DNA of 32,258 nucleotides, from the NCBI GenBank assembly GCA_903933385.1, contig CAIZJW010000283.1, positions 1 to 32,258 of the forward strand. The letters are read 5' to 3'. This document shows positions 1-2,601 of the stretch, in pieces. Numbering within the stretch: the stretch's first letter is position 1; each line of letters begins with the position of its first letter. Origin of the DNA: an uncultured Silvanigrella sp. GTDB taxonomy: Bacteria; Bdellovibrionota_B; Oligoflexia; Silvanigrellales; Silvanigrellaceae. The position numbers were made by a program, and so were the translations under genes. The notes beneath the pieces were generated by a model that had not been told where the DNA came from, made no database searches, and saw only the letters and a list, made by a program, of their open reading frames with translations.

Positions 1-386
1 GCATTTACCTGTGGATCTTGGAGGTTGTAGCCGCATTTGCGGCCGCTCGCATCCCAGGCAGGTTGTGTCGGGTGCTTCACACCTCTGCCACCTTCACCGC
101 CGGGGTATGTCTCGTTTATTTGGAAAAGTCCGACATGAACGCCTGTGCGAGCATCTGCTCGGCCAGACGATTCACAGAGAATGATGCATGTTGCGCGGTT
201 TCGGTCCCACTTTGGAAAGCCGGCTTTGTCAACGTAGGAGCGCAGTTGGAGAAGCTTGCTGTCCTGCATGAGGAGATCGTCGTTGGCTCCCGAAATTGCC
301 GAATCATTTTGTAGTTTATTTGATGAACACGCGACAGCAGAAGTCAGAGCAAGGGCGAGCGAGAAAATCAGTTTCATGTTTTTCAT
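1..386 (-). CDS. Lysozyme/lytic transglycosylase-like lipoprotein, C-terminus cut by window edge
   Basis: I translated this by hand; the frame is open from an ATG at 386 to base 1, about 128 residues, so the C-terminus lies outside the window. The start follows a strong GGGAGGA Shine-Dalgarno (about 394-401). The N-terminus (MKNMKLIFSLALALTSAVAC) is a signal peptide ending in a usable but weak lipobox (AVAC), with the lipidated Cys at residue 20 and Ser at +2, consistent with the outer membrane. Residues 67-91 contain CESSG with a candidate catalytic Glu72, then GLFQIN about 13 residues later. This Glu-Ser-Ser then Gly-Leu-x-Gln-Ile arrangement is typical of goose-type lysozyme/SLT folds that cleave peptidoglycan glycan strands. 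Cysteines at 67, 71 and 118 could form disulfides. Activity is inferred from motifs only. It lies downstream of the split protease on the same strand, with an 82-bp gap. Confidence 0.72.
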   Translation of the reverse strand, partial: MKNMKLIFSLALALTSAVACSSNKLQNDSAISGANDDLLMQDSKLLQLRSYVDKAGFPKWDRNRATCIILCESSGRADARTGVHVGLFQINETYPGGEGGRGVKHPTQPAWDASGRKCGYNLQDPQVN

Positions 387-468
387 GAGTTCGTTCCTCC
401 CAAAGGCATCGATACCCAGGAATAAGCCATGTTGACAATATAAATAATAAATCAATCAATTTCAATTG

Positions 469-1849
469 TTATCTGCACGATGAGCCGGTTGGCCGGGAGA
501 CGATCACCTCGTCGTTGCTGGGTTCAGGAAGAGCTAAAATGGCTGCGCCTCCGCTAATAGAACTGGAGCCTTTCGCGCTGAGGAGAAGAAACGGGGTTGA
601 GTCATCCAGCAAAAGAGCACTTCCACTGTCACCTGCGGAGAGAACGAGGTTCTTGCCTGGAGGAGATTCAAATCTAAAGAATAAATCGCGGGAGCTCTCT
701 TTGCTAAAAAAATCAAATTGGGGGCTCATTCCTTGTGAAGTGAAAAAATCCTTCAAGGGAGCGCTTGAAAACTTCCACGATTTTCCATCTGCATCAGCAA
801 AGTTTCCAGCAAAAATGAGGCCCAAATTTTCGTTTTGTATTGATGCCTGAAGCTTAGAAAATAGCGGCAAAAGAACGCTGTTGTAGTGATTCTGTGCCCG
901 AGATTTTTTATATTCAGAATAACTTTTTCCTGGTTGGAAATATCCATCTTTCTCTGCTTCAGCAATGAGATCGCGACCCGGTGCTCGCCATTTTCGTGCG
1001 AGAATCTGCAGTGTGTCTTTGTAATTGCAAACCGCTGAGGGTGTTTTTTCACTGCATTCGAGGAGCGTGTCGACAAATCGCCCTCGAGAAATGTCGAGTT
1101 CCATTTCCATTTGCCGCGTGACCGCAAGTTGCCATTGTTTGACAATTGATTCAGCTGCGCCACGCCGGTTGGAATCGTTCTCGCGAGTGAGCAGGGAGTT
1201 TAGGATCTCACTGCCGATTTTAGTTTTTGGGCGAATGTCTGCATCAAACAATCGGAAATCCTGCAGAGCTGAACAAAGGAGTGTTTCACTCACAGTTTCG
1301 CTCGCACCATTGCGTTTGCACTCTGCACCGTAGTTTTTCTTTCCCTCTTCCTCTAGAAAAGTGTAGTTCAGAGCGATGCGTGCGGGATTCTTTTGTTTTT
1401 TTTTCAGTATCGATGAACTCTGGAATTTTTGCTGCAACTAAATTGAAGAAACCGTCTCGAGCTTGCGCGAGTGATAGCGAGATATCCAATTGCACATAAG
1501 CATTTCTGCCATCAAAAAGACGCAGATCGCTCCTCACAATGCGAGATGAAAAATCCGGGAGACAATGTCGTGCCGTCCAGATTTGACTCTTAAATATTTC
1601 GCCTGATTTCGAAACAACTCTGACGAAGGCAGAGCATTGCGAGGTAACTGATTTATTTTCCTGCTCTGGAGAAAACGACAAACCCTCGAGGATGAGAATT
1701 CCACCGCCTGTTGTGAGTTTCGACACATTTGCGTTGCTCACTGCTTGTGTGGATGAGCATGAAGGAGGCACCTTTCCACCCTGGCATGCCGCCAGGACCG
1801 AGGAAAGAATCAACAAGCTGGATTTGTTGAAAATTCCGACTACCGCCAT
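469..1849 (-). pseudogene. Trypsin-like serine protease lipoprotein, interrupted by a frameshift
   Basis: Two overlapping frames together make one S1-type protease of about 458 residues. The upstream frame (1849 to 1286) starts with a signal peptide and lipobox (LAAC, Cys22) and carries the catalytic-His motif WTARHC (His95), with Asp122 in LDISL a candidate catalytic Asp. The downstream frame (open from 1437 to 469) carries GDSG near its residues 269-272, the catalytic-Ser motif. The frames join at a run of nine A (1396-1404 on this strand); losing one A, or gaining two, restores a continuous protein. A helical, charged stretch of roughly 170 residues sits between the His and Ser parts, longer than in ordinary trypsins. 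The gene starts 29 bp after the SDR gene and probably shares its transcript. It may be a real pseudogene, a sequencing error in the homopolymer, or a gene expressed by transcriptional slippage. Confidence 0.72.
1396..1404 (-). repeat. Nine-A homopolymer at the protease frame break
   Basis: On the coding strand this reads G, nine A, then C. The His-containing frame enters it as GAA AAA AAA ACA and the Ser-containing frame leaves it as AAA AAA AAA CAA. Tracts of this length are known sites of RNA polymerase slippage and of sequencing or replication indels. Confidence 0.8.
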
Positions 1850-1878: not shown

Positions 1879-2601
1879 TTAAGGGGACATGCGCTTTGTT
1901 GCGGAGAGTCCGCCGTCAATTGCGATAATTTGTCCTGTGATCATCCGGCTTTGTTCGCCGAGCAAAAAGGAAATTGCTTGAGCCATGTCGCTTGGCTCTG
2001 CAAGCCGTGGAATGGCCTGCAATTGCAAACTTGCTTTCAAAGCTTGTTCACTCTCAACAATCCGCTTGCTCATTCTGGAACGTGTGAGTCCAGGTGCAAT
2101 GGCATTGAATCGCACGGGAGCATACGTCGCTGCGCTTGAGCGCACGAGAGCCTCGAGTGCACCCTTAGCGGCCGCAATGGCTTCGTGATTCTGGAGTCCT
2201 ACTTTGGCAGCGGTACTCGATATAAGTACGACGCTTCCATGCCCTTGGCTTTTGAGTGTGGGCAGAACTGCCTTCATTCCTAGAAAAGCTGAGGTGACGT
2301 GCTTTTTAAAAACCTCTTCCCATTCATCGAGTCGTGTCATGTGAAGCGGTTTTAGAAGTATTGAACCACTGAAGTGGGCGTATCCATCGATACGTTCCCA
2401 GCGTTCCACGGCTTGCTGGATAGACTGCTTTAGGAAATCCTCATCAAAAGCCGATCCCACCAACGAAATATGCTCGCACTCCGGAGTTCTTTCCAAGTCA
2501 TGCTCTGACAAAAGAAGAAATCGAGCGTTTTTATTTTGTGCCACAAGCTCTTGTGCCATGGCAGAGTTTGCACCTTGAACAACATAAATTGGTGAACTCA
2601 T
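1879..2601 (-). CDS. SDR-family protein with degenerate cofactor and catalytic motifs
   Basis: This 240-residue Rossmann-fold protein has the length and layout of a short-chain dehydrogenase/reductase. The N-terminal nucleotide loop reads VVQGANSAMAQ where classical members have TGxxxGxG. The catalytic Ser is present in LISSTAA, but the YxxxK motif reads IAAAK (within NHEAIAAAKGAL), so the catalytic Tyr is replaced by Ile. The C-terminal part (FNAIAPGLTRS, then SRMITGQIIAIDGG) is typical of SDRs. The fold call is firm, but a normal redox function is doubtful; a binding or atypical role is possible. Its ATG overlaps the stop of the yqeY gene in an ATGA, so translation is probably coupled. The split protease gene follows 29 bp downstream. 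Confidence 0.85.
   Translation of the reverse strand: MSSPIYVVQGANSAMAQELVAQNKNARFLLLSEHDLERTPECEHISLVGSAFDEDFLKQSIQQAVERWERIDGYAHFSGSILLKPLHMTRLDEWEEVFKKHVTSAFLGMKAVLPTLKSQGHGSVVLISSTAAKVGLQNHEAIAAAKGALEALVRSSAATYAPVRFNAIAPGLTRSRMSKRIVESEQALKASLQLQAIPRLAEPSDMAQAISFLLGEQSRMITGQIIAIDGGLSATKRMSP

Follow-up and report, generated by a model that had tools for sequence, protein, structure and literature searches.

The window analysed here, a 32,258-nucleotide contig (C283, about 48% G+C) of an uncultured Silvanigrella sp., carries on its minus strand one protease-like gene in two open frames that meet at a run of nine A (window 1396-1404). In a sister species the same gene is uninterrupted with eight A, and the two halves are equally conserved between the species. 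Our best explanation, in which we place moderate confidence, is that slippage recently shifted the frame of a dispensable paralog within a peptidase family S1-like lipoprotein family, the gene being leaky at most through slippage by RNA polymerase. The source assembly (G000) is a draft of 326 contigs and 3.3 Mb that is 98% complete.

The upstream ORF (1849-1286, minus strand) starts with ATG and encodes 187 aa comprising the lipoprotein signal and the His half of the protein. It contains LAAC (1784..1795, minus strand), which by its motif reads as a lipobox and hence as a predicted lipoprotein signal, and the catalytic His motif TARHC (1562..1576, minus strand), assigned by motif. Its final 36 residues, 3' of the A run, are out of the sister gene's frame. 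The downstream frame belongs to an ORF of 322 aa (1437-469, minus strand), whose part 3' of the run (469..1395) encodes a conserved QKNPAR...YTFLEEEGKKNYGA stretch, QDFRLFD with the putative catalytic Asp (1243..1263, minus strand; column conservation), the catalytic Ser motif GDSGS (619..633, minus strand; by motif), and a C-terminal Cys in the ending SSCR. The preliminary description had placed the break at a nine-A tract with the His motif in one frame and the Ser motif in the other, and this was confirmed on the minus strand. Upstream, 29 bases from the protease start, lies a gene (1879..2601, minus strand) that we call an SDR-type reductase from reading its translation. Just downstream of the protease gene, window 3-455 holds a lipoprotein-like frame cut by the contig end, with a stretch that reads in translation as lysozyme/transglycosylase-like.

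The nine-A run is flanked by G on its 5' side and C on its 3' side. No other homopolymer in the gene is as long, the remaining runs of six or more reaching at most seven. It lies within the sequence coding for EKKQ, and the conserved peptide at this place is EKKQKNPAR. Relative to the upstream frame the downstream one is shifted by +1, and the third frame runs into an early stop past the A run. By our own arithmetic, a one-base indel placed at random over the 1381 bases would fall in the nine-base run with a chance of about 0.7%; this coincidence indicates slippage, either in DNA replication or in sequencing and assembly.

Each half was searched separately in 144 genomes of relatives (E 0.01 or better). 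Matches to each half were found in 6 of the 144 genomes, the window's own included, and outside G000 they were strong only in G002, a sister species of the same genus, where both halves matched at one place (E 2.7e-111 for the downstream half and 2.3e-49 for the upstream half). There (contig RFOM01000035.1), the gene has eight A at the run and stays open over all its 485 codons in a single frame; the sister protein of 463 aa is counted from a chosen ATG within this frame. The sister frame aligned to both window halves, with a length difference at the junction of one base, within the A run only. Since a single frame covers both, the two halves are parts of one gene. The tract lengths in relatives, a point raised in the preliminary description, are thus eight A in G002 versus nine in the window. 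A scan of 84,980 species with the conserved peptides (genome_contigs, one genome each, the window's genome perhaps left out) gave one relative among 244 candidate stretches, again RFOM01000035.1, listed as 'Proteobacteria bacterium isolate WB4_1_1462'. Furthermore, half-by-half trees (20 and 18 rows) paired the window gene with the G002 gene, with support of 100/100 for the downstream half and 100/99 for the upstream half.

Protein identity between the window and G002 was 51% in the upstream half and 55% in the downstream half, reaching 80% over the 40 codons 3' of the run, and 66% and 63% of the codons, respectively, differed at third positions. The dN values were 0.43 for the upstream half (145 codons) and 0.42 for the downstream half (307 codons); as the comparison involves two divergent orthologs only, dS is not computable and these figures give neither a date nor a dN/dS ratio. 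The downstream half is no more decayed than the upstream half, so that any decay would be recent, and the earlier statement that both halves are well preserved and any decay recent holds against the intact sister gene. Judged from these alignments, the equal conservation would suit an error, phase variation, or a gene that is still expressed or efficiently rescued as well as it suits a recent frameshift.

The product is a predicted lipoprotein, S1-like by its motifs only, of a lineage-limited family. It had been described as a secreted trypsin-like protease, and this calls for correction: 'trypsin-like' applies to the motifs, no protease model of Pfam or NCBIfam having matched, and 'secreted' gives way to a lipoprotein-type signal. 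The S1 motif order of His, Asp, and Ser is present, His and Ser by motif and Asp by column. By our own reading of alignment A2, 19 rows cover the putative Asp column, 16 of them with D and 3 with E. Among the 18 full-length A2 rows (L091, L104-L108, L111-L118, L120-L122, and L005; the family also includes L150), lipobox-like motifs were found in 15 by a loose pattern, and all 18 have a Cys within the last five residues. Similarity to peptidase family S1 (chymotrypsin/trypsin, PF00089) is seen in TAxHC, GDSG, one Cys before His and one just after it, and an Asp between His and Ser, whereas the window family differs in having about 200 residues between the Asp and Ser motifs.

Profile searches placed the family at a distance from known proteases. 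Twenty members were compared with Pfam (E 0.1) and with NCBIfam, and none matched a protease model of either; there was a single chance hit in Pfam (E 0.095) and four in NCBIfam (best E 0.04). PF00089 gave 43 matches in three genomes of the genus (E 1e-5), of which none overlapped the family loci among the places listed. A profile-profile comparison with 12 out of 14 S1 proteins read off from the genus gave a probability of 39 and an E of 3e-4, the alignment spanning only 25 columns, at and near the His. When solved structures were searched, the family profile gave one weak match, lysyl endopeptidase (E 0.86), again round the His motif, and the sister protein alone gave five unrelated chains (best E 0.11). 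A PHROGs search with the sister protein and the two window halves found nothing, and AlphaFold2, given the sister protein and an alignment made up of the two window halves, produced a model with a mean pLDDT of 35, too poor for a fold search on the double beta-barrel of family S1. To judge from the motifs, remote kinship to peptidase family S1 is likely.

The family profile matched 10 of 58 genomes of the class, and 40 of the 59 matched stretches were in the window's genus. Within this one genus the S1-like lipoprotein family is expanded, with seven groups among the treed rows and a long insert between the Asp and Ser motifs.

In G001, a genome of the same genus that is 94% complete, no ortholog of the window gene was found (best E 2.6e-5 and 0.008 for the halves). 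None of the six G001 members in the tree, which left out some weaker G001 family matches, joined the window's clade. The G001 ortholog of the SDR gene adjoins a transporter-like gene in place of the protease gene, and a protease remnant sought beside it was not found (best E 0.21). The absence from G001 would be more telling if G001 were closer kin to G000 than G002 is, and on this the four paralog groups represented in all three genomes disagree: G000 and G001 grouped in three of them, and in the fourth (C226, C2, C185) G000 grouped with G002 in a first tree (98/97) and was unresolved in a second.

Two paralogs in the genus look decayed, as far as their reading frames tell. One, in the same genome as the window (G000:C23; L103:2753-4123), is without the Ser-motif stretch and out of frame at its end; about 150 bases are missing by reading of the frames, the edges not being cleanly placed by alignment. 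The other, a remnant in G001 (G001:C3:128855; L109, minus strand), has kept only a C-terminal frame of 179 aa, Ser motif included, and nothing in it can be recognised as an N-terminal half. A family that gains and loses members in this way makes simple decay likely for the window gene, which appears dispensable and heading for loss.

The course of events that we propose is as follows. Until recently the gene would have been one reading frame for an S1-like protease lipoprotein. Strand slippage in replication most likely left the run at nine in the window lineage, the sister having eight. The main product would now be a lipoprotein fragment of 187 aa that has the His motif and lacks the Asp and Ser motifs, and thus presumably is no active protease. 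RNA polymerase slipping on the nine A may still yield a minor full-length protein, the situation known as a 'pseudo pseudogene'.

Leaky rescue of this kind is possible, and efficient rescue is less likely. Slippage giving full-length enzyme, as the preliminary description proposed, is conceivable and at the same time unfavoured, because single-base insertions, the commonest slippage product on A/T runs according to PMC5574713, lead to the third frame with its early stop. According to the data presented in PMC5574713, 80% of the slippage insertions in E. coli and Buchnera are of one base, and the portion of that paper on these two bacteria describes few deletions in homopolymers and no frame restoration. 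The same source gives 16 of 57 Buchnera deletions in homopolymer runs, at a rate rising with run length, which favours some rescue. Earlier work cited in PMC3017870 puts full-length transcripts at about 30% for frameshifted genes.

Long A/T runs were surveyed over the whole genome. The nine-A matches listed on either strand number 79 and correspond to 66 distinct A/T runs of nine or more. Called genes contain 21 of these, the window's run and 20 more that are spread over 19 genes. The gene calls are heuristic (hexamer score), a called gene being one open frame by construction, and a looser rule puts 28 of the 66 inside open frames. A frame-switch test flagged two of the 66, the window's run and L074; the latter was rejected because the preceding gene's stop codon already contains the first bases of the run. 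L037 and L060, labelled together with the window's run in a first pass (3 of 66), have short open stretches only and were dropped by the second pass. Only the window's run, among the 66, clearly joins two coding frames by this test, which is fairly insensitive, the window's own upstream half barely passing (0.01 against 0).

An error of sequencing or assembly, or the assembler's choice of an allele from a minority strain, would mean that the cellular gene is whole. We regard this as somewhat unlikely, and as the most serious of the alternatives. It is in keeping with the single draft assembly, the equally conserved halves, and the intact sister gene, and PMC3711429 states, in the part concerned, that non-clustered frameshifts confirmed by BLASTp are expected to be sequencing errors and not genuine indels. 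However, the genome gives no sign of systematic miscalling: of the 21 runs in called genes the telling ones are the 13 that lie at least 60 nt inside a frame, and 10 of them score as coding on both sides, three of these being runs of ten bases (L056, L083, and L087). There is no sign of an assembly-wide frameshift defect, and one wrong base at the window's run is possible.

The genes of this genome avoid long A runs. Although 92% of a 217-kb sample is coding, genes hold just 21 of the 66 long runs. In this sample the ratio of run density in genes to that in other DNA dropped from 1.17 at a length of five to 0.19 at eight and 0.08 at nine or more, where it is based on four runs. Shuffling of synonymous codons in 189 genes (200 shuffles) gave a mean of 14.2 A8 runs, where the genes have 6, a count as low arising in 1 of 200 shuffles. 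For at least nine A the mean was 5.3, where the genes have 1, a count as low arising in 3 of 200; that single run is, by position, the window's own. Shorter runs were not avoided, with 133 seen versus 111 shuffled for A6, 33 versus 36.7 for A7, and 92 versus 64 for T6. Nor were long T runs clearly avoided (T8, 10 versus 7.7; at least nine T, 1 versus 3.3, with 23 of 200 shuffles as low). Lys codon use was 2175 AAA versus 1420 AAG. Under-representation in coding regions is the sign that Baranov et al. used for slippage-prone runs (PMC1088944), and as treated there it leaves replication slippage and transcription slippage indistinguishable.

A phase-variable contingency locus, in which replication slippage at the run toggles the surface lipoprotein on and off in the population, seems to us quite improbable. 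A surface-type protein, an A run, and two well-kept halves would suit it, and the results given in PMC3441752 provide a precedent: in Vibrio cholerae, A8 and A9 runs occur in wbeL and manA, and manA was shown to revert. On the other hand, the case comes from one assembly, in which no variant alleles were seen, the run stems from the conserved EKKQKNPAR peptide written in common codons and not from an expanded repeat, and the ortholog was not found in G001. A broader form of the idea, that A8/A9 acts as a live switch by replication and transcription slippage together, on-state cells keeping the halves intact, strikes us as more doubtful still; if it were true, one member of an expanded, unnamed S1-like surface lipoprotease family would vary within the population.

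Among the kinds of frameshifting on A runs, the -1 ribosomal shift is the better-known. Programmed recoding, in which transcriptional slippage or ribosomal frameshifting would set the ratio of short to full-length protein, is highly improbable: nine A is a recognised slippage length (PMC1088944, in the part on such runs) and the genome's genes avoid long A runs, but a -1 ribosomal shift and a single-base insertion by RNA polymerase (the 80% class of PMC5574713) both lead to the third frame and not to +1, and the gene is unbroken, with eight A, in the one ortholog that the searches gave, so that neither the split organisation nor the run is conserved. The earlier suggestion of a recoded protease is accordingly not supported.

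A recent frameshift with at most leaky rescue, the reading that we favour, resembles several reported cases. With the 'pseudo pseudogenes' of Baranov et al. 2005 (PMC1088944), as outlined there, it shares the change from eight A to nine by frameshift, a homolog that is a single ORF in a relative, here a sister with a shorter run, and the under-representation of long A runs in genes; it differs in being a between-species comparison in one genus, from draft genome sequence alone, and in concerning a predicted surface lipoprotein. The frameshifted genes of Blochmannia and Buchnera, as far as PMC3017870 sets them out in the relevant part, likewise have an A-run indel in a gene otherwise intact, which transcriptional slippage may rescue. 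Those genes belong to reduced, AT-rich genomes, and some of them are conserved from one species to another, whereas the window's genome has 3.3 Mb, the G+C content of the window is about 48%, and its sister gene is unbroken. In V. cholerae, similarly, wbeL and manA have coding runs of eight or nine A in which a one-base change truncates the protein, but variation and manA reversion were shown there (PMC3441752, section concerned), and here the sequence of one assembly is at hand.

The break thus looks like a kind already known, an ordinary recent frameshift at a homopolymer or a sequencing slip, and not a conserved switch. By itself it is minor, one more A-run frameshift in an apparently dispensable paralog. 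Because there is an intact ortholog to compare and the genome's genes show a signal of avoiding long A runs, it makes a clean example for whether nine-A frameshifts in ordinary, non-reduced genomes leave genes dead or leaky. Probably of greater value than the break is the S1-like lipoprotein family itself, which the Pfam and NCBIfam models miss. One member, L107 (G000:C216), stands beside two ordinary PF00089 trypsin genes on the same strand. In 7 of the 18 full-length members (L104, L106, L111, L112, L113, L117, and L118), TDSG or SDSG replaces GDSG, a change two residues before the Ser.
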